Below are positions 15,902-42,382 of a stretch of DNA of 46,833 nt, piece by piece; positions within the stretch are counted from its first letter, which is position 1, and each line of letters starts with the position of its first letter. A program made the translations under genes and the position numbers. The notes below the pieces were generated by a model. The model saw only the letters and a program-made list of their open reading frames with translations, was not told the origin of the DNA and did no database searches. Location: positions 1 to 46,833 of the forward strand of contig JAHIVT010000073.1 of NCBI GenBank assembly GCA_018816555.1. Reading direction: 5' to 3'. The stretch comes from Pseudomonadota bacterium (GTDB taxonomy: Bacteria; Desulfobacterota; Desulfobulbia; Desulfobulbales; SURF-16).

Positions 15902-16177
15902 TTAGACATACAATCTCGGCCGTTTGGCCTGATTGCGACGCTTCTCGTCACGCTTTGTATCAGTCAGATTCTTGCGCTCACGCTCTCTCTGCTCAACAGG
16001 CTTCCAATCCGGACCAAGCAGATCGGACATTTTGAAAAAGCAGTACCAATTGCTGGGGGTTACAGTCGTTGTTGCTGCTGCTCCCTTTCCTTTTGCAAGC
16101 ACCTTTGCAATATTGTCACCAATATGAATAATACCGATCAAACCAACTGCTCCTGTCAATAATGTTAAAGGTTCCAT
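15902..16177 (-). CDS. Small protein, one N-terminal TM, basic tail
   Basis: Unrecognised 91-residue protein. An N-terminal hydrophobic segment (LTLLTGAVGLIGIIHIGDNIAKVL) is followed by a Gly/Ala/Thr linker, an aromatic patch (NWYCFFKMSDLLGPDWKP) and a strongly basic C terminus (RERERKNLTDTKRDEKRRNQ). An AAGGAG lies 6 nt before the ATG, so it is very likely translated. It follows the Usp-like gene by 24 nt and is the last gene of that minus-strand group. A membrane-anchored nucleic-acid or protein-binding tail is possible but unproven. Confidence 0.75.
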   Translation of the reverse strand: MEPLTLLTGAVGLIGIIHIGDNIAKVLAKGKGAAATTTVTPSNWYCFFKMSDLLGPDWKPVEQRERERKNLTDTKRDEKRRNQAKRPRLYV

Positions 16178-16201: not shown

Positions 16202-16747
16202 TTATAACCGTGAACAAGCCAGATCAAAAACAGGTATCTGCACTCGTCCTTCTTCACCCTGATGCTCAGGTTCGGTGAGTACGTACCGGATGCCGGGGTC
16301 TTTGGCGCTCAATTCGGATATTGCTTTTTCCTGATCACCGATTTCCATGATGTGCACCACGTCCACCGCCATGCTATCCGCCCGCTCAATGTATTTTTCG
16401 AGGTTTTTCTCCGCCTTTTCATAAAAGAGAGCGATCTCTGCCTCTTTTTTTTCACCTGTGAACTGCAACGGGGCATCGGACACGTTCAGGGCCACGATCG
16501 CACAGTCCAGGCGCTGGGCCATCTTCAAGCTGTAATCACTCAACTTGTTGGAATAACATCCATCACCCACCACCAGGATCTTGGTCGGCCCATTTTTCTG
16601 ATCCATCATTCTTTTAATGGCGGCAGCAGCACCGGTAGGATGTCCAGCGGCCATTTCGCCTATGCCAATGGACTCTTCCTTTACTTTGACAACCTTTACA
16701 TCATGATCTTTGTTCTTCTTTGCTCTCAGCCAGTCTAGAAATGCCAT
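16202..16747 (-). CDS. Universal-stress-protein-like, atypical
   Basis: 181 residues. After a basic N terminus with an amphipathic start (MAFLDWLRAKKNKDHD), a Usp-like alpha/beta fold is recognisable from about residue 55: KILVVGDGCYSNKLSDYSLKMAQRL, then CAIVALNVSD, DVVHIMEIGD. The usual ATP loop G-x2-G-x9-G-S/T at the C terminus is missing, so nucleotide binding is doubtful. The start at 16747 is set by AAGGAGG 6 nt upstream. A good sigma-54-like promoter lies about 85 nt upstream (16831-16849) and palindromic sites lie beyond it, so this gene is a candidate target of the regulator at 26273. Confidence 0.75.
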   Translation of the reverse strand: MAFLDWLRAKKNKDHDVKVVKVKEESIGIGEMAAGHPTGAAAAIKRMMDQKNGPTKILVVGDGCYSNKLSDYSLKMAQRLDCAIVALNVSDAPLQFTGEKKEAEIALFYEKAEKNLEKYIERADSMAVDVVHIMEIGDQEKAISELSAKDPGIRYVLTEPEHQGEEGRVQIPVFDLACSRL

Positions 16748-16830
16748 GATCATCCTCCTTATCTAAAATGTTATGTAAGTTCATTCGTTAAACCGTTTTT
16801 GCATCTCGGTTACCCTTTGACTTCTACATA

Positions 16831-16849
16831 TAGCATCAAGCGTGCCACA
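16831..16849 (-). promoter_or_regulatory. Sigma-54 (-24/-12) promoter-like sequence
   Basis: Minus strand reads TTGTGGCACGCTTGATGCTA. TGGCACG matches the -24 box exactly, and GC at -12 lies 10 nt after GG, the obligatory sigma-54 spacing; the -12 box is ATGC instead of TTGC. The predicted start of transcription near 16820 gives a leader of about 70 nt to the Usp-like gene. Confidence 0.65.
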
Positions 16850-17148: not shown

Positions 17149-19170
17149 TTACAGGAGAATACTTTCTATCAGCTCGGGAAGCGAGCCCACAAGTTGTAAC
17201 TTCAGGCTGTTTTTTACATCGTCCGGCAGGGCGTTGACCTCTTCATCATTGCGGGCAGGCAGTAGAACCATGGTAACGCCGCCTCGGGCGGCGGCAATGA
17301 CCTTGTCCCGGATGCCCCCGACGGGCAATAACTGGCCTGTCAGGGTCATTTCCCCGGTAACGGCAACATCTCTGCGGGCCGGCCGTTCGGTCAGCAGGGA
17401 AATAATCGCTACGGCGATGGCTGCCCCGGCGGATGGCCCGTCTTTGGCTATGGCACCTGCCGGAAGATGAATATGAATATCCATCTGATCAAAGAAATCT
17501 TCAGCAAGACCGTACATCGCGGCATTGCTTCTGATGTAACTGAGCGCTGTTTGCGCTGATTCCTGGAGAACATCGCCAAGGGATCCGGTCAGGATCAAAT
17601 TATTGTGGCCTTTCATCTTCAAGCCCTCAATGAACATGATCTCTCCACCGAACGGGGTCCAGACAAGACTGGTAACCACACCAACCACATCGTTGCCTTC
17701 GGCAGCTTCCCTTCGGTATTTCCTGGCACCGAGAAGCTTTGTCACCATATTGTCATCCACTGCGCGAACCTGGCTCGAATCTTTGTTTACCAGAATGATG
17801 CGGGCGATTTTACGGCAGATAGTACCGATTTCTCTATCCAGTCCCCGGACCCCTGACTCCCTGGTATAATCGCCAATGACCTTTTCCAGGGCGACATCGG
17901 AAAATTCAGTGTTCAGATCAGCCAGACCGTTTTCAGCAAGCTGCTTGGGAACAAGATAGCGCTTGGCGATAATCAGCTTTTCCTGGTCAGAGTAGCTGGG
18001 AAACTCAATCACCTCAAGCCGGTCCAGCAGTGGGCCGGGCAAATTGCTCACATCGTTGGAGGTAGCGATAAACATCACACTGGAGAGATCAAAAGGAATC
18101 TCCAGATAATGGTCAATAAAATGGGCATTCTGCTCCGGATCAAGCACTTCAAGCAGGGTAGAGGCCGGATCTCCTCGGAAATCCTGGCCTATCTTGTCGA
18201 TCTCGTCGAGCATGAAACAGGGGTTGTTGACCTTCACCCTGTTTATTTCGCTGATAATCCTGCCCGGCATGGCCCCCACATAGGTGCGACGATGGCCACG
18301 GATTTCCGCTTCATCACGCAGTCCGGCCAATGATACCCGGACAAATATGCGGCCAAGGGCCATTGCCACTGACCGGCCAATGGATGTCTTGCCCGTACCG
18401 GGCGGACCGGTAAAACAGAGAACAGGACCTTTGCCCATGTGCAGCCGCTGCTGTTTCTGCAAAACCTCTTTAACGACCCCTTTCAGCTCCTCGAGCTGAA
18501 CAGGCTTGGAAAGATAATGGGTCGCTCCTTTGCGCAGGGCATCGACGGCAGTGGAAACCGTGGCATAACCGGTTACCAGAATAACGTTGGTATCAGGAGA
18601 AATTTTGGTAACCCGCTCAAGCAGCTTGATGCCGTCCATCTCATCCATTTTAAGATCGGTGATGACAACATCAAAACAGCCGCCATTTTCAAACCGGCCC
18701 AAGGCTTCTCTGCCGTTGCCTGCCGTCTGGACGGAATAGCCGTCTTTGGCAAAGAAGTACCGCATGTTATTTCTGGCGATTTCCTCATCGTCCACAATGA
18801 GAATTCTGGCCTTCTGCTGACTTCTGAGCGTTTTTGCCGCCAGAAACTCCAGCACACGCTCCTTCACGTGCTCCAGGCCGAAATGATGTTTACTGAGAAT
18901 TGCCTGGGCTCGGTTGAAGTCCAGATTATCCTGGGTGGAAAAACACCAGGGGAGAGACAGAAGTATTTCGAGGTAATGCTGCCCGATGGCATATTCGGCA
19001 GCAAGCGGATCGGTTTTCTCCAGCTTTTCCAATTCATTTACGGCCTGCTGGCGGGCATGTTCAGGCAATTCTGTTTGGGCAATCTTCTTGGCGAGATCAG
19101 TTAACTGCTGAGACTGGGCTGATGAGCTTACCGAGGATAAAGCATCTTCTGTTTTTTTGAAAAAAATCAT
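17149..19170 (-). CDS. Lon-type AAA+ serine protease with an embedded receiver domain
   Basis: 673 residues with an unusual order. Residues 30-118 match the helical region that precedes the Lon ATPase (ELPEHARQQAVNELEKLEK, LLSLPWCFSTQDNLDF, FGLEHVKERVLEFLAAK). Residues 121-240 are a complete response-regulator receiver: Asp127/128 in LIVDDEE, phosphoacceptor Asp172 in VVITDLKM, Thr200 in LVTGYAT, Lys222 in LSKPV. Then comes the AAA+ module (Walker A GPPGTGKT 255-262, Walker B FMLDEID around 320, RDEAEIRGHRRTYVGAMPG) and the protease domain with catalytic Ser580 (KDGPSAGAA) and Lys623 (GGIRDKVIAA). The N-terminal Lon substrate-binding domain is absent. All catalytic residues are intact, so proteolysis may be controlled by phosphorylation. 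It has its own space after a terminator at 19257. Confidence 0.95.
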   Translation of the reverse strand: MIFFKKTEDALSSVSSSAQSQQLTDLAKKIAQTELPEHARQQAVNELEKLEKTDPLAAEYAIGQHYLEILLSLPWCFSTQDNLDFNRAQAILSKHHFGLEHVKERVLEFLAAKTLRSQQKARILIVDDEEIARNNMRYFFAKDGYSVQTAGNGREALGRFENGGCFDVVITDLKMDEMDGIKLLERVTKISPDTNVILVTGYATVSTAVDALRKGATHYLSKPVQLEELKGVVKEVLQKQQRLHMGKGPVLCFTGPPGTGKTSIGRSVAMALGRIFVRVSLAGLRDEAEIRGHRRTYVGAMPGRIISEINRVKVNNPCFMLDEIDKIGQDFRGDPASTLLEVLDPEQNAHFIDHYLEIPFDLSSVMFIATSNDVSNLPGPLLDRLEVIEFPSYSDQEKLIIAKRYLVPKQLAENGLADLNTEFSDVALEKVIGDYTRESGVRGLDREIGTICRKIARIILVNKDSSQVRAVDDNMVTKLLGARKYRREAAEGNDVVGVVTSLVWTPFGGEIMFIEGLKMKGHNNLILTGSLGDVLQESAQTALSYIRSNAAMYGLAEDFFDQMDIHIHLPAGAIAKDGPSAGAAIAVAIISLLTERPARRDVAVTGEMTLTGQLLPVGGIRDKVIAAARGGVTMVLLPARNDEEVNALPDDVKNSLKLQLVGSLPELIESILL

Positions 19171-19310: not shown

Positions 19311-20261
19311 CTAATCTGCTGTGATCAAGGCAACAAAATGATCCGGAAAGTGATGAACGATCTTGCGACTGACACTGCCCATGAAAATCTCACTGACGGC
19401 ATTGCGGCCACGCCTGCCCATAAAAACCATGGAGTTGGGGCGTTTGCCGATCTCCTCTTCTATCAGCCCGGCCGGATCGCCAAACCTGGCAACTTCGGAG
19501 ATGATATTTTCCGGGACTCCAGCGTCCAGGAGCAGCTTCCTGGCCTCCGACAAAAGCATATCGCTTGATTTTGCCGGGACTTGCCCCTTATCGATTTCCT
19601 CGCCATAACGGGCGGCATCCAGGACATGGACCAGCGTTACCTCCTTGACCACTGCGGAACACCCGCTCAGGAGAATCGCGGCCTCGGCCACGGCGGCCCT
19701 GGAATGAACCGATCCATCCACGGCAATAAGACAACGGCCGGCCGGGCACTCTGCTCTCCCCTCTATTTTGCCGACCAGATAAACACTGGCGTGAATGTCC
19801 CGATGCAGCAGGCCCGCCGTCACACTGCCGACCAGAACCTCACTGATTGCCGACAAGCCCCTTCTCTCCATGACAACCGTTGAATAGCCGCTGCGGGCAA
19901 CCTCAGCGATACGCCCAACAGGTTCGCCATCCTCAATGCGGATATCAATAGGCGCCTTGACGCCTGCTTTGCGCAGCAACTGTTCAGCCGCCTTCATTTT
20001 CGGCTCGATCTGCTGCTGGATATGCTGGTTTTTGAGCCTTTTAAAAAGCTCGGACTCCAAGATAAACTCAGTGCGCACGTCCACATTTGCCATGTGCGTA
20101 CTGAGGTACGAGCCCGCCATCACATGCAGCAGACTTACTTTTTCAATCCGGCTTCCCAGTCCCGCATCAATCATCCCCATCAGCCAGGCTATCCGCTCAA
20201 ATGTTTCCGGGCCATCGATGGGCAGCAAAAAACTTGATAACACTTTGCTCTTCATATTCAT
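19311..20261 (-). CDS. Tandem universal stress protein (two Usp domains)
   Basis: 316 residues made of two Usp folds (about 8-165 and 172-314). Both carry the ATP-binding G-x2-G-x9-G-S pattern, ERRGLSAISEVLVGS in the first and GRRGRNAVSEIFMGS in the second, so both are predicted to bind ATP. The first domain has a longer helical insert (ESELFKRLKNQHIQQQIEPK). Usp proteins modulate stress survival and often partner with ion transporters. It begins 27 nt after the ArsB/NhaD-type transporter gene, with AAGGAG 9 nt before the ATG, and belongs to the same operon. Confidence 0.93.
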   Translation of the reverse strand: MNMKSKVLSSFLLPIDGPETFERIAWLMGMIDAGLGSRIEKVSLLHVMAGSYLSTHMANVDVRTEFILESELFKRLKNQHIQQQIEPKMKAAEQLLRKAGVKAPIDIRIEDGEPVGRIAEVARSGYSTVVMERRGLSAISEVLVGSVTAGLLHRDIHASVYLVGKIEGRAECPAGRCLIAVDGSVHSRAAVAEAAILLSGCSAVVKEVTLVHVLDAARYGEEIDKGQVPAKSSDMLLSEARKLLLDAGVPENIISEVARFGDPAGLIEEEIGKRPNSMVFMGRRGRNAVSEIFMGSVSRKIVHHFPDHFVALITAD

Positions 20262-20288: not shown

Positions 20289-22076
20289 CTAGTAAAACAT
20301 CAGAAGCCAGACGTTGGCGATGGCGACGCTGATCATCATATAGAGGAATGCCACCTTCATATAGGCTACAAACTTTATCGAATATCCCGCTGATTCGGCG
20401 ATACCTAAAGTTACCACGTTGGCGCTGGCGCCGATCATGGTGCCGTTGCCGCCGAAACAGGCGCCAAAGGCCAGAGCCCACCAGAGCACGCCTGATTCCG
20501 CCCCGGGAATGACCCCGGTGAGATAGGCGACAATGGGCAGCATGGTGGCGGTAAAGGGGATATTATCGACAAAGGCGCTCATGATGGCCGACACCCAGAG
20601 AATCAGACAGATCGACACGGCCAGATTGCCGCCGGACAGATTGAGCACCCCATCGGCGATAATATCGAGCAGACCGGTCTCTTCCACGCCGCCCACCAGC
20701 ATAAAGAGAAACATGAAAAAGAGCAGGGTCGTCCACTCAATGTCCTTTTCGATCAGCTCAAGCAGTTTGATCTTCTTGGTCAGCAGACCGTAGGTGAACA
20801 GCAGCGAGGCGCCGAAGATGGCGGCGATGCTGACCTCCATGTGCCAGTAACCGTGGGTGAGAAACATGCTGACGACAATGGCCATGATGATGCCACCCAC
20901 CGTGAGCAGGGTGCCGTCGGTGATCTTGTACTCCTCCCGCAACTTGGCGATGAAGGCCTGAATGTCATCGACCTTGGCCTTGCCGTACTCCTTACCGTAG
21001 GCGATCTTGGAATAGACAAACAGAACCAGCATGGAGACGATACATACAGGCGTCAGGTTTTTGACAAACTCCATGAAGGTCAGCCCGGCATAGGAGCCGA
21101 TCATGATATTGGGCGGATCGCCGATCAATGTCGCCGTGCCGCCGATATTGGACGCCAGAATCAGCGGAATAAGCAGTGCTATGGGAGAAATACCCAGGGA
21201 CAGGGCAATCTCGATGGACACCGGCGTCAAAAGCAGCATGGTGGTGACGTTATCGAGAAAGGCGGAGGTTACCGCGGTGAAGCTCATGAGAATAACAGAC
21301 AGCACAATGACGTTGCCCCGGGCCAGCTGGTACGATTTGTAGGCGCACCACTGGAAGAGGCCGGTATGCTTGAGGATGCCGATGATGATCATCATGCCCA
21401 TGAGCAGCAGGATGACGTTCATGTCAATGGCCTTGATGGCGCTTTCATAGGAGAGAATATGGTATTCGGGATTGAGGGTGCCGAAGGTGTAGCTGATGAC
21501 CAGCATGGTGGCCGCCCCCAGCATGGCGGAAAGCGTCCTGTGCAGCAGCTCGAAGGAAATCAGGATATAGGCCAGGACAAACACCGTGGTGGCGATCCAG
21601 AAGGCCGGCCCGGTGGCGCGTTTGATGGTGACGTTCGCCCTGACCATATACTCATTGCCGGTGCGGGCCATTTTGTCCTGGGTGATGGTTAAACTGTCTT
21701 TTGCATAACTTGGCTTATAAGCCGTAATCTTGATTGTGGCACCTTCCAGGGAGCCGGGGGGAACTTCAAAGTTGGCCTGGAAGGTGCCGTCCAGTTCGGT
21801 TTTCAGGCCTCCGGCGCCCGCGCCATGGCCGCCCGGCTTACCCGTTGCCAGCGGGTGTCCGTTTAACTCCACTTCCACATCCGCATCGCCGACTCCAACG
21901 CCGTGCGAATTGACAATCTTGCCAAAGACAGCCAGAATGTCAATGTTTTCGCTTACCGCATGTTCAGCAGTTGATGCAGCACATGTCCGCCCCCCCGCCA
22001 AGGCGGTCACCAGACAAACCGCGGCAAGCGTCACAAGAATTCCCGATAAATATCGGGGTATTTTACCCAGCCTCAT
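20289..22076 (-). CDS. ArsB/NhaD-family ion transporter with periplasmic beta domain
   Basis: 595 residues. An N-terminal signal or anchor (GILVTLAAVCLVTALAGG) leads to a soluble segment (about 40-150) that reads like an Ig/carboxypeptidase-regulatory beta-sandwich: FGKIVNSHGVGVGDADVEVELNGHPL, TELDGTFQANFEVPPGSLEGATIKITAYKPSY. From about 155 on there are some 11-12 membrane helices of the ion-transporter superfamily, with the twin signature loops SAFLDNVTTMLLLTPV and SAFVDNIPFTATMLPI, plus NIGGTATLIGDPPNI and GGNGTMIGASANV. These resemble NhaD, ArsB and the eukaryotic P protein. Substrate (Na+/H+ or an anion) cannot be read. Lies 39 nt after the SLC13-type gene. Confidence 0.92.
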   Translation of the reverse strand: MRLGKIPRYLSGILVTLAAVCLVTALAGGRTCAASTAEHAVSENIDILAVFGKIVNSHGVGVGDADVEVELNGHPLATGKPGGHGAGAGGLKTELDGTFQANFEVPPGSLEGATIKITAYKPSYAKDSLTITQDKMARTGNEYMVRANVTIKRATGPAFWIATTVFVLAYILISFELLHRTLSAMLGAATMLVISYTFGTLNPEYHILSYESAIKAIDMNVILLLMGMMIIIGILKHTGLFQWCAYKSYQLARGNVIVLSVILMSFTAVTSAFLDNVTTMLLLTPVSIEIALSLGISPIALLIPLILASNIGGTATLIGDPPNIMIGSYAGLTFMEFVKNLTPVCIVSMLVLFVYSKIAYGKEYGKAKVDDIQAFIAKLREEYKITDGTLLTVGGIIMAIVVSMFLTHGYWHMEVSIAAIFGASLLFTYGLLTKKIKLLELIEKDIEWTTLLFFMFLFMLVGGVEETGLLDIIADGVLNLSGGNLAVSICLILWVSAIMSAFVDNIPFTATMLPIVAYLTGVIPGAESGVLWWALAFGACFGGNGTMIGASANVVTLGIAESAGYSIKFVAYMKVAFLYMMISVAIANVWLLMFY

Positions 22077-22115: not shown

Positions 22116-23918
22116 TTAGAGACCGTAGAACAAATAAAGAGAAGCGAACATGACCACCAGGTACAGGATGGTCATACCGCTTCCCGCCTTGAAATAATCA
22201 ACTGTTCTATAGCCGCCCGGCCGCATAATCAGGGCATTCACCTGGTGTGTCGGCAGAACGAAGGTGTTTGAACAGGCGACGGCAACCACCAGGGCCGCCA
22301 GCCGCGGATCAGCTCCGGCGGTATTGGCCATATTCATGGCCAGCGGCACCATGAGCACTGTGGCGCCGACATTGGAGACAACAAGGGTAAAAAAGGAGGT
22401 GAGCAAGGCGATGATGACCAGCAGGACAACCGGGACAATACTGCCCACGCCGCCCATGATGGTTTCGGCGATCATCTTCGCCGCACCGGTTTTTTCAAAG
22501 GCGATACCCAGGGGAATCAGGCCACCGAGCAGAAAGACCGTCATCCAGTCCACGGATTCATAGGCCTCATCAATGGTCATAACCTTGCTCAGAATCATCC
22601 CCATGGCACCGGTCAACAAGGCGATGGAGAGCTGGACTTTGAAACCAATAATCATAATGAGAGAGAGAATCAGGCACCCTACGGCATACTTGAGTTTGGC
22701 GGTATTTATGATCTCACCCTGCACCTCCTCGGTGAAGATGACATCCTGTCTTTCTTTCATGAAGTGAAACTTCTCCCAGCGGCCCTGGAGAAGAAGGGCA
22801 TCACCAGCCTGGAGGCGGATATCTGAAATACCGCCGACAAAGGTCTTGTTGCCGCGAAATATGGCCAGGGGGTTGACGCCGAATCTTTTACGGAAGGCAA
22901 AGGAACCGAGGGACTGACGGACAAGCTCGGAACGGGGAGTGATAATACCCTCAATAATACCGGCATTATTAGAGGAAAGATCTTCGGCAAAGACGGAAAG
23001 ATCATCTTTGATCTCCCAACGGAAAGAGGCGGCCAGCTTATGCACCAGTTCCGGAGGACCTTCCACAGCTATGGTGTCGCCGTCGCGGATCAAGGCATCG
23101 GTGCCAGGTGCAAAATTCTTTACCCCCTGGGAGGCTATTGCCACAACAGTGGTGAAGTAGTTCGCTCTGATCTCCAGGTCCCCCAGGGACTTGGGTCCGC
23201 CAAAGTCCGCAGGAACCTGCAGTTCATAAAGATGGCCGATATCCTGGTAAGTCCTCTGGAGATTCTTTGACATGGGGCCGGCGGAAGCCTCTTCCCCCTG
23301 CCCGGCCGGCAGAATGAATCTGCCCAGCAGGGCAAAGTAGGCTATAGCGGCTACGACCAGTAAAACGCCCATGGGAGTGACGTCAAAAAGCCCGAAAGGT
23401 TTCACATTCGGGTCCGCAATCTTCATCACATCGTTCAGCAGGATCAACGGGCTTGACCCGATGAGGGTCACACAACCGCCGATAATGGCACAGAATCCCA
23501 TGGGCATCAGGATTCTTGAGACCGGGATGTTTGTCTGCTTGCAGATTCTTTTGGCCGCCGGCATGAACAGGGCTGCCGCACCGATATTCTGCATGAAGCT
23601 GGAAATAAAGGCAACGGTGCCGGCGATGAGCATCATGATCCGGCTCTCGCTGCGGCCGGCAAACTTGAGAAGAACCCGGGCAAGGGAGTTCATGGCCCCG
23701 GTCTTGTCAAGCCCGGCACCAATGATAATAACCGCGATGATGGATACCACCGCGTTACTTGAAAGCCCGCTAATCGCCTCTTTCGGCGTTACCAGGCCTA
23801 GAATTGGCAGGATAATCATCATAAGGATGCCGACGACATCAACCCGTACCCATTCAAATATAAACAGCAAAATTGCCAGTACCAGAACAGCCATTACTAA
23901 AATTATTGGCAAACTCAT
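22116..23918 (-). CDS. SLC13/DASS-type transporter with RCK_C (TrkA-C) domains
   Basis: 600 residues. Membrane helices occupy about 1-200 and 405-600, with repeats typical of the ion-transporter superfamily (FMQNIGAAALFMPAAKRI, LIGSSPLILLND, VVSNVGATVLMVPLAMNM, FVLPTHQVNALI). Between them two cytosolic RCK_C-like domains (about 220-380) show VPADFGGPKSLGDLEIRANY, ALIRDGDTIAVEGPP and the second copy LGSFAFRKRFGVNPLAIFRG with LQAGDALLLQG. Relatives carry sulfate, dicarboxylates or other anions. First gene of a transporter-transporter-Usp operon; a sigma-54-like promoter lies about 420 nt upstream. Confidence 0.93.
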   Translation of the reverse strand: MSLPIILVMAVLVLAILLFIFEWVRVDVVGILMMIILPILGLVTPKEAISGLSSNAVVSIIAVIIIGAGLDKTGAMNSLARVLLKFAGRSESRIMMLIAGTVAFISSFMQNIGAAALFMPAAKRICKQTNIPVSRILMPMGFCAIIGGCVTLIGSSPLILLNDVMKIADPNVKPFGLFDVTPMGVLLVVAAIAYFALLGRFILPAGQGEEASAGPMSKNLQRTYQDIGHLYELQVPADFGGPKSLGDLEIRANYFTTVVAIASQGVKNFAPGTDALIRDGDTIAVEGPPELVHKLAASFRWEIKDDLSVFAEDLSSNNAGIIEGIITPRSELVRQSLGSFAFRKRFGVNPLAIFRGNKTFVGGISDIRLQAGDALLLQGRWEKFHFMKERQDVIFTEEVQGEIINTAKLKYAVGCLILSLIMIIGFKVQLSIALLTGAMGMILSKVMTIDEAYESVDWMTVFLLGGLIPLGIAFEKTGAAKMIAETIMGGVGSIVPVVLLVIIALLTSFFTLVVSNVGATVLMVPLAMNMANTAGADPRLAALVVAVACSNTFVLPTHQVNALIMRPGGYRTVDYFKAGSGMTILYLVVMFASLYLFYGL

Positions 23919-23986
23919 TTTAATCCTCTTTTTAGAATATTCAATTCAAATAATCATACACTGTGCTGATTTTTTTAACTTTTTGT

Positions 23987-24170
23987 ATGAGCCTCTTGCA
24001 AAATGCAACATCTACTCCGATCGGCTAAAAATATCCCGTGCGGCGTCTTCCTGGTGAAATCGTCCTCAACGTAGCACTGTTACGCTTCCGGGCGATTTCA
24101 CAACTCATCCTTGCACAGAAAATTTTTCTCTCGATCTCGCTACGACCTTCATTTTGCAAGAGGCTCGTAT
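23987..24170. repeat. MITE-like element with 17-bp terminal inverted repeats
   Basis: GAGCCTCTTGCAAAATG at the left is matched in reverse by CATTTTGCAAGAGGCTC at the right, about 180 bp apart. Inside is a second inverted repeat, TGAAATCG / CGATTTCA, in the middle of the element. No reading frame fits. A partial copy of the end (ACGAGCCTCTTGC) occurs at about 31228-31240. This is consistent with a non-autonomous mobile or palindromic intergenic repeat inserted in the leader of the SLC13 gene. Confidence 0.65.
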
Positions 24171-24336: not shown

Positions 24337-24355
24337 GTGCAACGGCTATGCCAGC
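24337..24355 (-). promoter_or_regulatory. Sigma-54 promoter-like sequence for the transporter operon
   Basis: Minus strand reads CTGGCATAGCCGTTGCACGC. TGGCAT-N5-TTGCA matches the -24/-12 consensus except for one base (T for C), with GG and GC exactly 10 nt apart. Transcription would start near 24326, about 410 nt before the SLC13 start codon, and would include the MITE-like element in the leader. Confidence 0.6.
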
Positions 24356-24812: not shown

Positions 24813-26258
24813 ATGTTTCAACTTAATCTGCGACAAAAAATGATTGGCTTTTTCGTTTTGAAGCTTGCATTTTTTATTTCATTGGGCGCGTTCCTCTATA
24901 ATGATTTTGAAAAATTCAACGAGGATGTCACCATTCTGATTCGGGCCATCAGACTCAGCAACACCTGTCTTGAGATCAGGCGTTACGAGAAAAATTACAT
25001 CATGCGCAGTGAACTGGAAGACTTCCTCACAGCTCAGAAATATATCAATGAGGCTATTGAATACCTGGCTTTTGTGCAGAACGATCTCAACAGACCGAAA
25101 CCGCAGCTCGTTGGGAAAATCGAGACGAAACTCCAGCAATACCGTTCAGCCTTCAAGGCATTGAAAGACAATTGTGAGATATGCAGCGAACATGAAATAA
25201 AATTCTTAAATGACAGCCGCGAGCTCTTGCGGACAATCGGCAAGGAACTGATCGCCTTAAGTGATGAATTTGTTATTGCCGAACAGAATAAACTGAGTAG
25301 GTTTGTTCAGCATTTTCAGATACAGCTCTTTTTTTATCTTCTGCTGCTGGGTGTTTTTACTATTTTCACCACGGCTATGATATTCAAAACCCTGATCAGG
25401 CCACTGAAACTGATCGAGGTTGCGGCTAATACCATTGCCAAAAATCGTTTTACCCCGCTGCCTCTTCCGGACAAAAAAGATGAACTGCATAGTGTCCTGC
25501 GCGCCTTCAATAAAATGGTAAAGGAACTTGAGGAGCAGCAGGAACAGCTTTTCCAGGCTAAAAAGCTGTCCTCCATCGGGACACTGGCCTCAGGCACCGC
25601 TCATCAGCTCAATAATCCACTCAACAATATCTCCACCTCCTGTCAGATCGCGCTGTCTGAGCTGAAAGAGGGTGACTGTCAATTTATCGAGGGCTTGCTC
25701 AAGAACATCGAGCAGGAAACCCATCGGGCCAGCGACACGGTCAAAGGATTGCTTGAGTTTTCCCGGGCCCAGACATTCTCCATCCAGCCCGCTTTTCTTG
25801 ATGAAGTGGTGGAGCGTGCCGTCCGTCTTGTCTCAAGCGATGTGCCTGCGGATATAACCATCAAAAAGAAGATTCCGGCAGATCTCGCCGTTAAAGTTGA
25901 TATCCAGAAAATGACGGAAGCCCTGCTCAATCTGCTGTTAAACGCTCTTCAGGCAATCCCTGAACCTCCCGGCACCATCTCCATTACAGCGGCAGCGGAC
26001 GGTGAAAACAAAAATGCGGTCATCACTGTTGAAGACACGGGATGTGGCATTGATGAAACCAGTATGCAGAAAATTTTTGATCCGTTCTACACCACCAAAA
26101 ACGTTGGCAAAGGAACGGGCCTGGGCCTGGCGGTCGTTTACGGCATCATCAAAAAACATAGCGGCACGATCAAGGTGGAAAGCAAGTTAGGGCAGGGTAC
26201 AAAATTTATCATCACATTGCCCTTGGCCTTTGAAAAGCCTAAATCACTCGAATCTTAA
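24813..26258 (+). CDS. Membrane sensor histidine kinase (NtrB/ZraS-like)
   Basis: 481 residues. TM1 (about 10-29) and TM2 (about 170-192) bracket a helical periplasmic domain containing CLEIRRYEKNYIMR, the pattern of four-helix-bundle/HBM-type sensors. A HAMP region (192-243) and coiled coil lead to HisKA with phosphoacceptor His264 (GTAHQLNNPLNN) and a HATPase domain (NLLLNALQAIPE, DTGCGIDE, FDPFYTTKNVGKGTGLGLAV). The ligand cannot be read; HBM sensors in other bacteria bind small organic acids. The regulator gene follows after 14 nt, so the pair is a two-component system. Confidence 0.95.
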   Translation: MFQLNLRQKMIGFFVLKLAFFISLGAFLYNDFEKFNEDVTILIRAIRLSNTCLEIRRYEKNYIMRSELEDFLTAQKYINEAIEYLAFVQNDLNRPKPQLVGKIETKLQQYRSAFKALKDNCEICSEHEIKFLNDSRELLRTIGKELIALSDEFVIAEQNKLSRFVQHFQIQLFFYLLLLGVFTIFTTAMIFKTLIRPLKLIEVAANTIAKNRFTPLPLPDKKDELHSVLRAFNKMVKELEEQQEQLFQAKKLSSIGTLASGTAHQLNNPLNNISTSCQIALSELKEGDCQFIEGLLKNIEQETHRASDTVKGLLEFSRAQTFSIQPAFLDEVVERAVRLVSSDVPADITIKKKIPADLAVKVDIQKMTEALLNLLLNALQAIPEPPGTISITAAADGENKNAVITVEDTGCGIDETSMQKIFDPFYTTKNVGKGTGLGLAVVYGIIKKHSGTIKVESKLGQGTKFIITLPLAFEKPKSLES

Positions 26259-26272
26259 CCCGACATAAAGAA

Positions 26273-27670
26273 ATGCAAGAAGACAAAGCAATACGCATAC
26301 TCGTGGTTGATGATGAGATTATCAATCTGCAGAATATCCATCACGTTTTAACCAAGGAGGGTTATCACGTTGAAACCGCCTCCTGCGGCAAGGAGGCGGT
26401 GGAAAATATTGCCCACAACCAGTTTGACCTGATCATAACCGATCTGAAAATGCCAGACATGGATGGTGTCCAGGTGATGAATATTGCCAAGGAAATGCAA
26501 CCTGATGCCGAGGTGATCATCATAACAGGCTATGCCACGGTGAATTCTGCGGTGGAGGCAATGGCTGAAGGCGCGTTTTACTACATGGCCAAACCAATCA
26601 AGCTCAACGAGCTGCGCGCCCTGGTCAAAAAAGCCCTGGAAAAGACCATACTAAGAAATGAAATATCCCGTCTCAAGCAGCATATCATGTCAAAAAAAGG
26701 GGTAACCCAGTTTGTCGGCCAAAACCCCGCTGTGCTGAAACTCAAGGATAATATTGCCCAGGTTGCCCATCTCGACTGCAATGTCCTCATCATCGGTGAG
26801 ACAGGCACCGGCAAGGAACTCGTCGCCCGCACCATTTATGAACTGAGCCCCAGGGCCAACAAACGCTTTCTGCCGATCAACTGCGCGGCCTTGACCGAAG
26901 AACTCATGCTGAACGAACTGTTCGGCCATGAAAAAGATGCCTTTACCGGAGCATCCAAGTGGCGCAAAGGCCTTCTTGAGTCGGCTGACGGCGGCGTGGT
27001 GCTGCTGGATGAAATTGGGGAAATGCCCCTGAACATGCAGGTCAAACTGCTGCGGGTCCTGCAGGAAAAAAAGATCATCAGGGTGGGAGGCACCAAGGAA
27101 ATTCCGGTTGATGTACGCATCCTGGCTGCCACCAACAGGGATCTGCAGGAAGAGGTGCAGCTGGGGCGGTTCCGTCAGGATCTCTATTACCGGCTCAACG
27201 TGGTGTCGCTTAATATTCCCCCTCTGCGGGACCGGAAGGATGACATCCCGCTCATTGTCCACCATTTTCTGGCAAAATATCCCGCGCCCGAGGGGAAGAT
27301 AAAATCCATTGAACCAAAGGCGCTTGACATGCTGCAGGATTATGAATATCCGGGCAATGTCCGTGAATTGGAAAACATCATTGAGCGGACCCTGGCCTTG
27401 TGTGGTGAACCGGAGATAAAGCCATATCACCTGCCGCCGGAATTCGGCACCCAGCAGCTCCATTTCACCACGTCGGCCAAGGAGGATAAGCCGGTGCAGA
27501 CCCTGGAGAACCACGAGCGTGACTATATCATGTCGGTTCTGAAGAGCGTGGAGGGCAACAAAAGTCAGGCGGCCAAAATCATGAATATCGACAGGGTGTC
27601 CCTGTGGCGCAAATTAAAAAAATACGAGGAAAGCGGGTTTAATATCGACGAGTATCTGCAGAAAAAATAG
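26273..27670 (+). CDS. NtrC-family sigma-54-dependent response regulator
   Basis: 465 residues: receiver (1-122; Asp13/14, phosphoacceptor Asp57 in IITDLKMPDMDG, Thr85, Lys108), sigma-54 AAA+ domain (about 145-375; Walker A GETGTGKE 175-182, Walker B GGVVLLDEIG 240-249, RQDLYYRLNV) and a Fis-type HTH (420-460; NKSQAAKIMNIDRVSLWRKLKKY). The sigma-54 contact loop reads DAFTGA (222-227) rather than GAFTGA. It should activate promoters of the -24/-12 kind, and three such sequences occur in this window together with palindromic sites. Its receiver resembles that embedded in the Lon-like protease (GYATV-x-(S/T)AV-x-A in both). Confidence 0.96.
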   Translation: MQEDKAIRILVVDDEIINLQNIHHVLTKEGYHVETASCGKEAVENIAHNQFDLIITDLKMPDMDGVQVMNIAKEMQPDAEVIIITGYATVNSAVEAMAEGAFYYMAKPIKLNELRALVKKALEKTILRNEISRLKQHIMSKKGVTQFVGQNPAVLKLKDNIAQVAHLDCNVLIIGETGTGKELVARTIYELSPRANKRFLPINCAALTEELMLNELFGHEKDAFTGASKWRKGLLESADGGVVLLDEIGEMPLNMQVKLLRVLQEKKIIRVGGTKEIPVDVRILAATNRDLQEEVQLGRFRQDLYYRLNVVSLNIPPLRDRKDDIPLIVHHFLAKYPAPEGKIKSIEPKALDMLQDYEYPGNVRELENIIERTLALCGEPEIKPYHLPPEFGTQQLHFTTSAKEDKPVQTLENHERDYIMSVLKSVEGNKSQAAKIMNIDRVSLWRKLKKYEESGFNIDEYLQKK

Positions 27671-36902: not shown

Positions 36903-39065
36903 TTACTTTTCGTCCAGCGCCTTTCTGACCAACCGGGCCAGCTCGTTCTGGTCAAATGGTTTCATGGCAAGCTGCCTTATCCCCATCTCCTTCACTTTTT
37001 CCGGATTGACCACAGAGCTGTAGCCGGTGCAGAGAATGACGGGCATATCCGGCCGGATTGCCAGAATTTTGCCGGCAAGCACCGTACCCGGCATGGCGGG
37101 CATGGTTTGGTCGGTTAGCAGCAGATCAAAACTGTACGGACTGGAGCGCAATATCTCCCAGGCTTCCATACTGCTGGTCATTGCCGTCACCTGATATCCC
37201 AAACCCTCCAAGACTGATTTCTCATATTTAACAATGGCTGTTTCGTCATCAACCGCAAGAATCCTCTCATGGCCTGCGGGAATGTCGCTCTGGGTCTCAC
37301 ATGACGCCCTGCACACCTCTTCCGAGGCAACAGGAAAGTAAACATGAAAGGCCGTGCCCTTGCCGACTTCACTTTCAACCTTGATCATGCCGCCACAGTC
37401 ATGGACAATCCCATGGACCACGGCCAGCCCGAGCCCTGTCCCCTTGCCGAACTCCTTGGTGGTGTAATAGGGCTCGAAAATCCTGGCCATGGTTGTTTGA
37501 TCCATCCCCTGCCCGGTGTCGCTGACAGAGAGCTCGACAAAAGGACCGGGGGAGACGTTGAGTTCGCTCTCCACATCAGCAGCGTTCAACTCTCTTCGCT
37601 TCAGGCTTACCGTCAGTACACCCTGCTCTTTATCCATGGCCTGCTGGGAATTGGTGCACAGATTGATCATCACCTGCTGCAGCTGGGAAGGGTCGGCCAG
37701 GATAGCGCCGCAATCCTTGTTGATATGCTGCCGGATCTCTATTGTCGTCGGAATGGAAGCCCGCAGCAGTTTGAGAGATTCATTGATGATGAGATGCGGC
37801 GCCAACGGCACAATCTTATAGTCCCCTTTCCGGCTGAAGGTGAGAATATGTTTCACCAGATCCCTTGCCCGCAACGCTCCCTTAATCACCTGTTCGATAT
37901 CGGCCAGGGAGGTAACGCCCATTTTAATGCCCTCCCGCACCAGCTCGGCATAGCCAAGGACTGCTGTCAGGATGTTATTGAAATCATGAGCAATACCACC
38001 AGCCAGGGTACCGATGGCCTCCATCTTCTGGGCCTGCCGGAGCTGCGCCTCAAGCCTGTCACGCTCCTCCAGGTCTTTGCGGGCATTGGTCAGATCATGC
38101 AGGCTCATCAGAATACTTAAGGGCCGGCCATCCTTATCACGGATCACCTTCAGCGTTATCTCAAGGGGCCGGCCGGCAGGATTATCAGGATGGTCAGCCT
38201 CCATGGTGATAATCGCATCACGCATTTGCTCCTGGGCAACACAGACCGGACAAGGCTCAGCCTCACCTGCGGGATGGACAATTGCGCTGATATGTCGGCC
38301 CACGGCTGTCTCCGGCGTGCTGCCGGTCAGCCCGTAAAAAGTTTTGTTGGCGCGCACCAGACAGCGTTTGGGGTCAAGCAGGTAGATGGCGTCATCCGAG
38401 GCATCCATGGCAGCCGCCCATTCCCTGACGGACTGCTCCATGGCCTGTTCAGCCTGCCTGCGTTCGGAGATGTTGCGGGCGATGCCGAGGATAACCGGGC
38501 GGTCGTCAAGTATCAGCTTGCCGATATGAATCTCCACCGGAAAAAGCGACCCGTCCTTACGCCGATGCATGCTTTGCCTCAGGAGGGTATGCTTGGAAGA
38601 CAGCTTGCCCCACAGGTTCTTACTGTCGATGGCCAAGGAGAATTCCGGATCAACATCCGCGACACTCATCTGCAGCAGTTCCTCGCGGGAATAACCCAGC
38701 GACATACAGGCCTCTTTATTGACATCAATCAGATGGCTTTCCATATCGCTGACAAAGATGGCGTCTGTTGCCTGGTTGAGCAGGGTGCGAAATTTTTTTT
38801 CACTCAGGCGCAGCGTCTCGGCTATGCGCGCCTGCTGCTGCATGGAGCGATCAATCAGCCAGTAAAGAAGCATGGCGGTGATGGCAACAAAGGTCCAGCC
38901 TTTATAGATGGCAATGCGGGCGCAAAGTCCCAGGTCTGAAACAAAGGCAAAGAGTATTCTGTCGGAAAAGAGTATCCACAGGGCTCCGAAAAAAAAATAG
39001 AGCAGGGTGATCCTGAGCTGGACCGATATTTTCGGCTTTGCTTGCTTATTTTCATTCAGTTCCAT
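36903..39065 (-). CDS. Hybrid sensor histidine kinase, 2 PAS, C-terminal receiver
   Basis: 720 residues. Two membrane helices (about 19-42 and 54-72) without a sizable periplasmic domain, PAS1 (88-203), PAS2 (213-330; contains PCPVC, two cysteines that could bind metal or sense redox), coiled coil, HisKA with His360 (GGIAHDFNN), HATPase (MINLCTNSQQAM, DTGQGMDQ, EPYYTTKEFGKGTGLGL) and a receiver (about 595-718; AVDDETAIV, LLLTDQTMP, CTGYSS, MKPF). Phosphotransfer would go to its own receiver or a separate partner; no output gene lies adjacent. Confidence 0.95.
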   Translation of the reverse strand: MELNENKQAKPKISVQLRITLLYFFFGALWILFSDRILFAFVSDLGLCARIAIYKGWTFVAITAMLLYWLIDRSMQQQARIAETLRLSEKKFRTLLNQATDAIFVSDMESHLIDVNKEACMSLGYSREELLQMSVADVDPEFSLAIDSKNLWGKLSSKHTLLRQSMHRRKDGSLFPVEIHIGKLILDDRPVILGIARNISERRQAEQAMEQSVREWAAAMDASDDAIYLLDPKRCLVRANKTFYGLTGSTPETAVGRHISAIVHPAGEAEPCPVCVAQEQMRDAIITMEADHPDNPAGRPLEITLKVIRDKDGRPLSILMSLHDLTNARKDLEERDRLEAQLRQAQKMEAIGTLAGGIAHDFNNILTAVLGYAELVREGIKMGVTSLADIEQVIKGALRARDLVKHILTFSRKGDYKIVPLAPHLIINESLKLLRASIPTTIEIRQHINKDCGAILADPSQLQQVMINLCTNSQQAMDKEQGVLTVSLKRRELNAADVESELNVSPGPFVELSVSDTGQGMDQTTMARIFEPYYTTKEFGKGTGLGLAVVHGIVHDCGGMIKVESEVGKGTAFHVYFPVASEEVCRASCETQSDIPAGHERILAVDDETAIVKYEKSVLEGLGYQVTAMTSSMEAWEILRSSPYSFDLLLTDQTMPAMPGTVLAGKILAIRPDMPVILCTGYSSVVNPEKVKEMGIRQLAMKPFDQNELARLVRKALDEK

Positions 39066-39298: not shown

Positions 39299-42200
39299 TC
39301 ACTCCTGGGCCGCGCAGCGGAGTGAAAAATCCTGCAGGGACTTGAGATACCCCTCCGAGCGGTCCAGATAAAAGGACAGGGCCCGTGAGAATTTTTTACC
39401 CAGCACGCCGTCGACGAACAGCTGGCTGATCTGCCGCTGCTGTTCGAGAATGAGTTGGGAGGCGACCATGATCCGCCGTTCCTCGGCAGACATGGATTTC
39501 ATGATCGAGTAAAGTGTCATGGCTGCCCGGGGTTGATACATCCAGATATACAGCAGATCCAGGGCGTTGATGATGACGATCTTGCCCAGATCGGGATTCT
39601 TCTCCGCCACGGCCTCCATGAATTCCTTGGGAGACTCAAGCATCTCAAGCACATCGGCCTCCGGGAACAGGGTTTCCAGCAGGGCATAGGTCTCAAACAC
39701 CTGGGCGATCTTGGCCGCATAATCCATGGAGCGGAAGCGGATATTGTTGAACCGGTCAGCCAGCCCCTCGATGAAGCCGGCCACGCAGTCCGAGGCCAGC
39801 TTGGAAATCACCGCAGCCCACTTCTGCAGGATGTCGTTGACAACGGCCACACCGGTGCCGCCGAGCATCCAGCCGATCACCCCGTTGAACAGGACGGCCA
39901 GCGGAATGGAGAGGATGCTGCGGAAAAAATTCCCGTACACCGCGGCCTTGGGCAGCCCCCGGAAAATATTATGGCCCGAGATGTAGACCCCGTTGGCCAG
40001 GGCCATGACCGAATAAAGGGCAACCGGATTGCTTCCGGCGGTGATACCGAACATCTGGTCGAGAATCAGGGTCTTTACCAGCAGATCGAGCAGGGGCACG
40101 GAGAAACCGGTGAAAAGAAGCGAATAGGACAATCTGTCCCAGCTTACATACTCCTTCCATTTCAGCAGGGGCGAGCGGGTGATGCCGCCGGCGCCGAGCA
40201 CTGACTGGATGATATTGCGCAGCCCCGTGATGCCGAACCAGATGAACGCGCCGAAATAGGCGAGAAACCACCAGTCCTTGGTCAGGGCGAAGGTGGCAAA
40301 GGCGGGGATGAAACCGATAAGTATCTTGAGCCCGTTTTTCAGGTAGTTGTTCAGATAGCCCAGGGGAATTCTCCGCTGCTCCTCGGCATCGTCCCGTGCC
40401 TCAAGGGACAGGCCGTTATCCTGTCCCGTCTGCATCCACCCCAGGGTGGCCACATTGCCGTTGGGTTCCATATGGGTGGAGTAGGCTTGCACCTCCCAAT
40501 CTTTCTGCCGCTCGTAGCCGAAGTTCAGCCCGGAAAAGACCGGCCCCAGGGCGCATGACGGGGTTGAAACGCTGGTCTTATGCTCCCAGGGGACACTCTG
40601 GTCCAGGAGTCCGTGGTGGTTTCTCCTGGGGATGAAAGTCACCCGCAGATGGGCGGTAATGCGCACGGGAATGTTCCAGCGCCCGGGTTGCTGTTTGCGG
40701 TCAAGGTCACGCCGCGCAGCGCGCGGCAGGGTGTCCTTCATGACCAACCCCATGCCGTAACGGTGCCGGGAGCTGCCGGTGGAGTCGCTGCCGATACGGG
40801 ACTTGATCAGGGAATTCTTGTAAAATTCCTGCAATGTCGGCATGTTGTGTAAAATGGTGGTCAGTTTTTTCCTACGCTGTTCCGCATCGCGGACCAGGGG
40901 CACAGCCTCACTCACGTCACGGAGAATCTTCTGGATAACCCGTTTGAGGTGAATGACGTTGCCCTGATTGATCGCCAACTGCAGACTGTTGATCTCAGCG
41001 TAATGGACCGCCTTGCCGGTGGTATAATCCTTGAGGTTGAATATCTCCAGGTGGGTGATCTTGCCCCGGCAGTCATAAAGAAGCTCCAGCACATCGGCCG
41101 GGCTGAGTTCGCTCAGATTCAGGGTGATGCGAGAGCCGGAGTGGAGGCTTTCCAGCCGGGTGAGCAGCTCCTCCGGGGAAAGCCGGAGCATGCCAGGCAC
41201 CTCGGCATCATCATGGGGGGCAAACGGATTGTGGATGCCGGGATTTTTCTCCGGCTGCAGAAAACTCTCGATGATGGCATCCGGATCCAGGGTGTTCATG
41301 ATCTCAACGGCGTGGGTGATGCGCAGGCGCTCTTCCTGGTCCGCCCCTGCCCAGCTTTCCCGGAACCCTGCCACCTGCTCGCGCATGGCCGGCAGCATAT
41401 GATTGTAAATATACTTGGCCAGATGCAGCAGCGAGGGCTGGCCAGAGCCGACAAAGGCGAAGAAATCCTCCCGGTCAAAGGGGGCGAGGTTGATGCCGTA
41501 GGCCTCGTTGATCAGCGGCCGATGCCTGGCGTTGAACTCCCTGAACACGGCAAGCACGTAACGCTGCTGGTATTCCGAAACCTTGCGGCCTTCGTCCATA
41601 ACGGCCTTTGACGGGCCATCCTTGAAAAAATTGAGAAAGTCCTTCTTGTCGGCAAAGCCGCGGGGCGCCCAGATGAGTTTAACATAGCGGCCGCGGAATC
41701 TGGCGGAAAATTCTATGCCGATCCTGACGGCGATTCCCATGACTTCCGCCGATTCCAGCAGTTCAGCCGCCACCTCCACGTTGATGAAGTTGTAGTAGAT
41801 CACCGTCAGGCGGCGGATACCCTTGATCCAGGCGTCCATGATAAGGTGGGTCGGCGACTTGCGGCCCTTGGTGTTGGCGTCGTGCACATGGTCGTCGAAG
41901 GCGATCTGATTCCATTCCTCCGGCATCTCGATCAGATGGTACTTCTTCAGCTGGCTGCGGATAAAACGAGGCTTGCCGAAGGTGGCTGTACGGAAATCCC
42001 TGGCCAGCTTGAGCTGCCGCAGATAGTCCCCCTGGGAGCGGACCAGCTCCTTCATGATCTCCAGCAGGATCCGGGCGGTATTCCTGCGCAGCATACTCTG
42101 GGAGCTGCAGAGCACCTCATCACGCAGACAACGAAGCGCATTCTGCCGGTCAGCGGCCTTGCCCGCCTCAAGAGAACCCAGCAGATGAATGACCGCATAG

Positions 42201-42382
42201 GCGATGCGCAGGCCCATGGAGGCTGTCATTTCCTTGATGCCATGCGGGTGGAGATAGGGAATCAGCAGATTTTTGACGTGCTTGTGGGCTTCATCCCTGT
42301 TGAGAACATCATTAACAATATTCAACAGGACATAGTCATTCTCGTCGAAAAAAAACCGGGATACTCTTTTATCTTTAATCAT
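39299..42382 (-). CDS. Large protein: PHP-like segment plus membrane C terminus
   Basis: 1027 residues, no family recognised with certainty. Residues 160-230 read like a PHP phosphoesterase: FDDHVHDANTKGRKSPTHL, then DAWIKGIRRLTVIYYNF and a GIAVRIGIEFSA end, comparable to the H-x-H plus Gi-x-GiE spacing of PHP proteins. Other metal ligands are not obvious, so it may be inactive. A middle region (about 400-600) is soluble; about five to six hydrophobic segments fall between 690 and 880 (FIPAFATFALTKDWWFLAYF, YSLLFTGFSVPLLDLLV, AVLFNGVIGWMLGGTGVAV), followed by a helical C terminus. It follows a degenerate kinase gene on the same strand by 265 nt. Confidence 0.85.
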   Translation of the reverse strand: MIKDKRVSRFFFDENDYVLLNIVNDVLNRDEAHKHVKNLLIPYLHPHGIKEMTASMGLRIAYAVIHLLGSLEAGKAADRQNALRCLRDEVLCSSQSMLRRNTARILLEIMKELVRSQGDYLRQLKLARDFRTATFGKPRFIRSQLKKYHLIEMPEEWNQIAFDDHVHDANTKGRKSPTHLIMDAWIKGIRRLTVIYYNFINVEVAAELLESAEVMGIAVRIGIEFSARFRGRYVKLIWAPRGFADKKDFLNFFKDGPSKAVMDEGRKVSEYQQRYVLAVFREFNARHRPLINEAYGINLAPFDREDFFAFVGSGQPSLLHLAKYIYNHMLPAMREQVAGFRESWAGADQEERLRITHAVEIMNTLDPDAIIESFLQPEKNPGIHNPFAPHDDAEVPGMLRLSPEELLTRLESLHSGSRITLNLSELSPADVLELLYDCRGKITHLEIFNLKDYTTGKAVHYAEINSLQLAINQGNVIHLKRVIQKILRDVSEAVPLVRDAEQRRKKLTTILHNMPTLQEFYKNSLIKSRIGSDSTGSSRHRYGMGLVMKDTLPRAARRDLDRKQQPGRWNIPVRITAHLRVTFIPRRNHHGLLDQSVPWEHKTSVSTPSCALGPVFSGLNFGYERQKDWEVQAYSTHMEPNGNVATLGWMQTGQDNGLSLEARDDAEEQRRIPLGYLNNYLKNGLKILIGFIPAFATFALTKDWWFLAYFGAFIWFGITGLRNIIQSVLGAGGITRSPLLKWKEYVSWDRLSYSLLFTGFSVPLLDLLVKTLILDQMFGITAGSNPVALYSVMALANGVYISGHNIFRGLPKAAVYGNFFRSILSIPLAVLFNGVIGWMLGGTGVAVVNDILQKWAAVISKLASDCVAGFIEGLADRFNNIRFRSMDYAAKIAQVFETYALLETLFPEADVLEMLESPKEFMEAVAEKNPDLGKIVIINALDLLYIWMYQPRAAMTLYSIMKSMSAEERRIMVASQLILEQQRQISQLFVDGVLGKKFSRALSFYLDRSEGYLKSLQDFSLRCAAQE

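Follow-up and report, generated by a model that had tools for sequence, protein, structure and literature searches.

A receiver domain within a Lon-type protease, encoded beside an NtrC-type regulator and its putative kinase

The window, by which we mean the whole stretch of 46,833 nucleotides analysed, contains a gene for a Lon-type protease that carries a receiver domain (hereafter receiver-Lon), accompanied by genes for universal stress proteins, anion transporters, a membrane histidine kinase and an NtrC-type activator, as well as by palindromes and candidate σ54 sites (Table 1). Further along the minus strand, positions 36903-39065 encode a hybrid histidine kinase that contains a PAS domain and a receiver of its own, and a 1027-residue ORF at 39299-42382 gave no convincing Pfam family, its best match (E 1.4e-4) falling below the cut-off.

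Table 1. Features of the receiver-Lon locus, with positions counted in the window.
Feature	Position	Strand	Remarks
Small protein	15902-16177	-	91 aa; not clearly assignable to a family; neighbours the Usp-like gene in near relatives
Distant Usp-like protein	16202-16753	-	183 aa, downstream of receiver-Lon; Usp match below cut-off
σ54-like site TGGCACGCTTGATGCT	16832-16847	-	Ahead of the Usp-like gene
Palindrome TTGCA-N3-TGCAA	16945-16957		Proposed enhancer
Second palindrome TTGCA-N3-TGCAA	17102-17114		157 bp from the first
Receiver-Lon gene	17149-19170	-	673 aa plus stop; ORF, Pfam, NCBIfam, phmmer
Lon protease domain	17155-17760	-	Residues 471-672; Ser580-Lys623
Lon AAA+ module and lid	17776-18435	-	Residues 246-465; Walker A K261, Walker B D322-E323
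Inserted receiver	18436-18819	-	Residues 118-245; D127/D128, D172, T200, K222; α5 (226-245) up to the AAA strand
Three-helix bundle and first AAA helix of Lon	18820-19128	-	Residues 15-117; Pfam, phmmer, AlphaFold2
Universal stress protein	19311-20261	-	316 aa, directly upstream of receiver-Lon
CitMHS-type membrane transporter	20289-22076	-	
CitMHS/DASS-type anion transporter	22116-23918	-	With TrkA_C domains
σ54-like site TGGCATAGCCGTTGCA	24338-24353	-	Precedes the run of transporter, Usp and receiver-Lon genes
Imperfect inverted repeat holding TTGCATATAGCAA and GTGCAATTTGCAA	24556-24619		Possible degenerate enhancer, weakly supported
Membrane histidine kinase	24813-26258	+	HAMP, HisKA and HATPase domains plus two hydrophobic segments; putative phosphodonor of both receivers
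NtrC-type σ54 activator with receiver	26273-27670	+	DAFTGA variant of the GAFTGA loop

The receiver-Lon ORF runs uninterrupted over 673 codons from an ATG at 19170 to a stop ending at 17149 on the minus strand. Pfam analysis placed Response_reg (residues 123-233, E 1.5e-28, 99.6 bits against a cut-off of 30.2), AAA (251-389), Lon_lid (413-465) and Lon_C (471-672) in this order, all four exceeding their curated cut-offs, and the protein passed the curated equivalog cut-off of NCBIfam TIGR00763 (endopeptidase La) with 702.7 bits against 608.05. A phmmer alignment with the Lon structure 7yph of the PDB, presumably the M. taiwanensis enzyme, paired residues 22-116 with 245-339 and residues 246-673 with 346-771. 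Because this alignment breaks at the receiver, the insertion point can be assigned to the short linker that follows the first AAA helix and leads to the strand preceding Walker A, where the receiver stands in place of about six residues of 7yph. The domain order and the break in the alignment bear out the preliminary description of this DNA, which had read a receiver inside Lon from the sequence alone, and the receiver residues that it named (D127/D128, D172, T200 and K222) sit where it had put them. It was equally right that the Lon catalytic residues are intact, Ser580, Lys623, the Walker A lysine K261 and the Walker B pair D322-E323 all being present. Its missing N-terminal substrate-binding domain likewise gave no Pfam match in receiver-Lon at E 0.001, and homology to 7yph starts only at about Lon residue 245. 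Judged by these comparisons, receiver-Lon is a Lon-type protease but, lacking the N-terminal substrate-binding domain, not a canonical LonA. The host genome carries three ordinary Lon genes besides receiver-Lon, together with two weaker Lon_C matches.

A search for proteins combining receiver and Lon domains across taxa, as the preliminary description had proposed, gave matches spanning both parts in 22 of 58 relatives, in 48 of 395 genomes of the phylum and in 25 of 198 genomes of the phylum to which a MAG titled Nitrospirae belongs, where the residue-by-residue check covers one genome, that of locus L012. Among the 395, another 45 matching genomes align from residue 242 on only, like ordinary Lon, and one more match, in genome G048, is cut by a contig end. 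The class sample around a Pokkaliibacter genome, which we take to belong to the Gammaproteobacteria, gave no receiver-Lon in 369 genomes, in a search run without a positive control. This absence is weak, because passages of PMC3333781 name Thioalkalivibrio and Dechloromonas, along with Thermodesulfovibrio, as holding orthologues of DVU3305, the partner regulator of the Lon-containing response regulator DVU3303 of Desulfovibrio vulgaris, mostly with a DVU3303-like gene.

The recurrence of the fusion also bears on whether it is real. The preliminary description had recognised that a sequencing or assembly error joining a receiver gene to a Lon gene would undo its claim. We give this explanation negligible probability: the same fusion occurs in 22 of the 58, 48 of the 395 and 25 of the 198 genomes, and a local assembly error is ruled out because other genomes carry it. 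It is also countered by an unrooted tree built with a quick method from the AAA and protease part alone (receiver columns excluded, one locus, L211, dropped by the program), in which a single branch with 100% SH-aLRT splits 27 receiver-Lons from 22 ordinary Lons.

Comparisons between loci were made over 63 receiver-Lon loci, namely the window, 60 fetched regions and the loci L012 and L013, which were selected on a match that spans the receiver. A full-length match was found in 64 genomes (the 22 of 58 plus the 48 of 395, six being shared), and the neighbourhoods of 61 of these, window included, were taken, leaving out G051, G346 and G133. The window extends over 46.8 kb and the other loci over at most 20 kb. 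All 63 loci keep the Lon residues S580, K623, Walker A K261, Walker B D322-E323, N372, R384 and R442, and all keep D127, D172, T/S200 and K222 of the receiver, while position 128 is D in 61 and E in two.

An AlphaFold2 model of receiver-Lon (29 sequences, mean pLDDT 83.2, pTM 0.67) gave the order three-helix bundle, AAA helix (residues 100-117), receiver fold (122-245) and AAA strand (250-254), with receiver helix α5 (226-245) stopping four residues short of the strand. The Lon part of the model superposes on Lon structures, with 526 residues at 2.7 Å on E. coli Lon 6u5z. Both junctions between receiver and Lon are constant in length across all 63 loci, at 9 and 15 residues, and the distance from Lys222 to Walker A is exactly 33 residues in every one. 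In the partner NtrC regulators, 46 of 50 of which could be measured and four not, the same distance is 66-70 residues in 45, mostly 68, and 34 in one. The distance from Asp to Lys is 50 in 58 of 63 loci (five rows were misread by the text pattern) and that from the helix to the acidic pair is 23 in 52 of 63 (11 rows were not found by the pattern). The constant junction lengths and the fixed spacing of 33 residues suggest a mechanical coupling between receiver and Lon motor that goes beyond tethering.

The genes around receiver-Lon differ from those around ordinary Lon. An NtrC-type regulator scoring above 300 bits is encoded in 50 of the 63 receiver-Lon loci and in none of 20 ordinary-Lon loci; the threshold is the analyst's choice, and three of the 20 encode a regulator of this type at 241-250 bits. 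Kinases scoring above 100 bits occur in 53 of 63 against 0 of 20, and DASS transporters scoring above 300 bits in 21 of 63 against 0 of 20. As controls we used the surroundings of 20 ordinary Lon genes, drawn from 17 of the 58 relatives, in stretches of up to 20 kb, some of them cut by contig ends. No NtrC-type regulator above 300 bits was found in 13 of the 63 receiver-Lon loci, some of which lie on short contigs, and in L168 and L170 the regulator is present but unlike in α1. Receiver and Lon in one protein with a kinase and an NtrC-type regulator nearby is thus the arrangement of the window and, counting the window, of 50 of 63 loci. Wherever the regulator is present (50 of 50), the kinase lies within 300 bp of it, and the N-terminal 190 residues of the window kinase find a match at E < 0.001 in 45 of these 50 loci, window included. 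The part of this kinase that precedes HAMP shows a weak match to the helical sensor HBM, below cut-off (E 5.7e-4), which may hint at an anion or organic acid as signal. A Usp-like gene is present in 35 of the 63 loci, and among homologues of the Usp-like protein at 16202-16753, two of the eight scanned match Usp above cut-off. As a separate observation, 20 of the loci L014-L040, mostly from Zixibacteria, yield a Lon-like consensus with the altered AAA motifs GAPGTGKAS, EDIDYF and CSVR and an intact Ser-Lys protease domain; to go by these motifs, the proteins are possibly Lon paralogues with a degenerate ATPase.

The palindrome TTGCA-N3-TGCAA was first seen in the window, the other loci then serving as its test, and the case for an enhancer consists of its exact form together with its proximity to σ54-like sites. 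It occurs three times in the window, where 0.17 are expected, and the 4.9-Mb genome contains it five times. The 63 loci together carry 47 sites, compared with 0.65 in shuffled sequence; 31 loci contain the palindrome and 32 lack it, while 375 kb of sequence from the 20 control loci contain none. The palindromes of a pair are spaced by 86-89 bp in nine loci; for the window and three near relatives the spacing is 157-158 bp. An exact palindrome at 23996 was set aside as an enhancer; it begins in an arm of a MITE-like repeat (23986-24169) and is still included in the count of 47. This element has 20-bp inverted arms, and the genome contains 23 exact matches to 17 bases of the arm, including eight pairs about 160 bp apart. 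With one mismatch allowed, the window holds 17 palindromes where 21 are expected, so this looser form is not enriched. Nor are σ54-like sites with up to two mismatches enriched window-wide (23 against 31.8 expected). A σ54-like site lies within 250 bp of 24 of 34 palindrome clusters, where 4.4 are expected. Both strands were scanned, and 18 of the 28 sites near palindromes lie on the strand opposite to Lon; when the search was restricted to the interval between palindrome and gene, sites with up to two mismatches were found for 10 of 37 gene/site pairs, mostly in near relatives of the window. Palindromes and σ54-like sites together would fit an enhancer bound by the NtrC-type regulator.

The partner regulators themselves often depart from the standard GAFTGA loop, the first residue being other than Gly in 30 of 50 (EAFTGA in 16, DAFTGA in nine and others in five). 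Near the palindromes the -12 element is often TTGA or TTGT, not TTGC; judged by eye, its covariation with the GAFTGA variants is not clear-cut.

Similarity between receivers offers a guide to the kinase. Among the scored receivers of its own genome, that of the NtrC-type regulator at 26273 is closest to the Lon receiver (46% identity, 113.3 bits; the next reaches 97.0), and it is the best of the 137 other receivers matched in a ranking of 138 that the query itself heads, 150 of 186 candidates having been scored; the resemblance noted in the preliminary description is thereby upheld. We compared the receivers at five positions of helix α1, which we take to be kinase-contact positions. Kinase specificity is carried by α helix-1 and the β5-α5 loop according to passages of PMC2991266. 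At the five positions, Lon receivers share 0.65 identity with their partner NtrC receivers (50 loci), against 0.10 with second NtrC-type regulators of the same loci (n = 6, one further locus having been excluded as both its regulators are family members) and 0.07 with the 28 next-best receivers of the host genome. Over the rest of the receiver the corresponding values are 0.46, 0.37 and 0.36, so the likeness is concentrated on α1. The partner was defined as the regulator of a locus most like that of the window, a choice that favours partners over second regulators. When partners were permuted among loci, the mean at the contact positions was 0.58, and none of 500 permutations reached the observed value. 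In a receiver tree with few columns, sampling 29 of the 63 Lon receivers and 26 of the 50 partners, Lon and partner receivers group with 93% SH-aLRT in a set of 60 rows (29 Lon, 26 partner, three second-regulator and two other receivers). From these comparisons we infer that one kinase acts on both receivers. The earlier suggestion that the kinase at 24813 serves both gains support from the contact positions across loci, but in the window itself only two of the five match, the α1 likeness being weaker in the window lineage than in most loci.

What we observed are the order of the domains, the conserved residues, the unvarying junction, the linked genes, the palindrome and the σ54-like sites. 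On this basis we think that receiver-Lon probably serves as the proteolytic arm in a branched two-component system of the kind formed by DVU3303, DVU3304 and DVU3305, in which one kinase would feed forward through two receivers. The membrane kinase at 24813 would most likely phosphorylate both the receiver of the NtrC-type regulator at 26273 and the receiver inserted into Lon. Once phosphorylated, the regulator would turn on σ54 promoters beside the TTGCA-N3-TGCAA sites and so induce the stress-protein, anion-transporter and receiver-Lon genes. In the protease, phosphorylation of Asp172 would shift the α4-β5-α5 face of the receiver and thereby either alter ATPase or ring activity or open a substrate docking site in place of the lost N-terminal domain, as proposed because α5 reaches the AAA strand before Walker A at fixed spacing. 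The same signal would then both make the protease and arm it. Phosphotransfer and its sign, the binder of the palindrome and the substrates are the parts that we infer. Counting against this reading, simple activation of the target transporter DVU3299 does not explain the chlorate phenotypes of Desulfovibrio vulgaris: in passages of PMC10102598, DVU3303-3305 are detrimental on chlorate, their loss being of help, whereas loss of DVU3299 does harm.

The receiver could also be a built-in adaptor, whose phosphorylated or unphosphorylated surface binds particular substrates and leaves ATPase and ring assembly unchanged, thus replacing the lost N-terminal domain by analogy with the service that CpdR and RssB render to ClpXP. 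Receiver adaptors are, as is generally known, established for another AAA+ protease, and both the missing substrate-binding domain and the retention of the receiver in 63 of 63 loci would suit such a role. Its fixed length is compatible with an adaptor as well; the short constant junctions and invariant spacing between receiver and Walker A in all 63 loci, however, point towards mechanical coupling, and we regard a pure adaptor as unlikely. The receiver might instead be a phosphate sink or a structural remnant attached to a constitutive Lon, with phosphorylation doing no more than tune how much flux reaches the NtrC-type regulator. Kinase-contact residues common to both receivers would allow such competition. 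A sink, however, would need neither the fixed junction nor a Lon whose catalytic residues are all kept, and both features hold across the 63 loci, which include one from a MAG titled Nitrospirae; we consider this reading improbable.

A negative feedback, in which receiver-Lon degrades its partner regulator or kinase and the receiver provides recognition, would agree with the linkage of the genes, and contact between the receivers is conceivable because those of Lon and NtrC are close kin. A protease that destroys its regulator should give mutants of opposite sign, yet the D. vulgaris mutants share their sign, all pairwise cofitness values among DVU3303-3305 exceeding 0.9 in the 2023 mutant screen reported in passages of PMC10102598. 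This cofitness disfavours Lon as a destroyer of its own regulator, and we hold negative feedback to be improbable.

Within the branched two-component reading, a more specific version holds that the motor is switched directly by aspartyl phosphorylation, in a coherent feed-forward circuit under one kinase and with the receiver replacing the substrate-recognition domain; on present sequence comparisons this is a serious but tentative possibility. What sets the protein apart is that the receiver switch is built into the protease itself and joined to the motor by a junction whose length does not vary among the 63 loci. A simple in vitro experiment could here address whether an AAA+ protease is under direct phospho-control, because the switch lies in the chain, the junction is fixed and the presumed kinase can be identified, and the palindrome and the match at the kinase contacts provide concrete predictions of regulon and wiring.

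Compared with known proteins, receiver-Lon resembles LonA (7ypk, 6u5z and 6on2) in its three-helix bundle, AAA+ and Ser-Lys protease domains, which superpose, and differs from it in having no N-terminal substrate-binding domain and a receiver ahead of the Walker A strand. NtrC-family activators (receiver, linker, AAA+ and DNA-binding domains) likewise carry a receiver on an AAA+ protein, but in receiver-Lon the receiver lies within the AAA+ region after its first helix and the output is proteolysis. To our knowledge, proteolysis elsewhere comes under two-component control mainly by way of separate adaptors. CpdR and RssB are receiver adaptors of ClpXP, by which two-component phosphorylation controls an energy-dependent protease; their receiver acts in trans, whereas that of receiver-Lon is part of the Lon chain. 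Both adaptors are mentioned in passages of PMC12974527.

The closest counterpart is DVU3303 of Desulfovibrio vulgaris Hildenborough, which passages of PMC3333781, dating from 2011, present as a response regulator that contains a Lon protease, partnered by the histidine kinase DVU3304 and the σ54-dependent regulator DVU3305, with the suggestion that phosphorylation is possibly needed for protease activity. The novelty implied by the preliminary description therefore does not hold, because the fusion, its partners and the idea of phosphorylation for activity were already in print there. DVU3305 is counted among the σ54-dependent regulators in passages of PMC4641369, and its targets are DVU3302-3298 in passages of both papers. 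As far as these passages describe it, the system matches the window in its receiver and Lon protein, histidine kinase and σ54-dependent regulator, and its regulon of UspA-type proteins and a putative anion transporter matches the window genes at 19311, 20289, 22116 and 16202. The window differs in that receiver-Lon lies behind the transporter and Usp genes, with kinase and regulator encoded on the other strand, and in that the Usp-like gene has its own palindromes and σ54-like site. The window system thus belongs with the DVU3303-3304-3305 kind, the two being likened by description and gene neighbourhood, and what is added here are the counts of linkage to the NtrC-type regulator, the shared putative kinase-contact residues and the recurring palindrome with its σ54-like sites.
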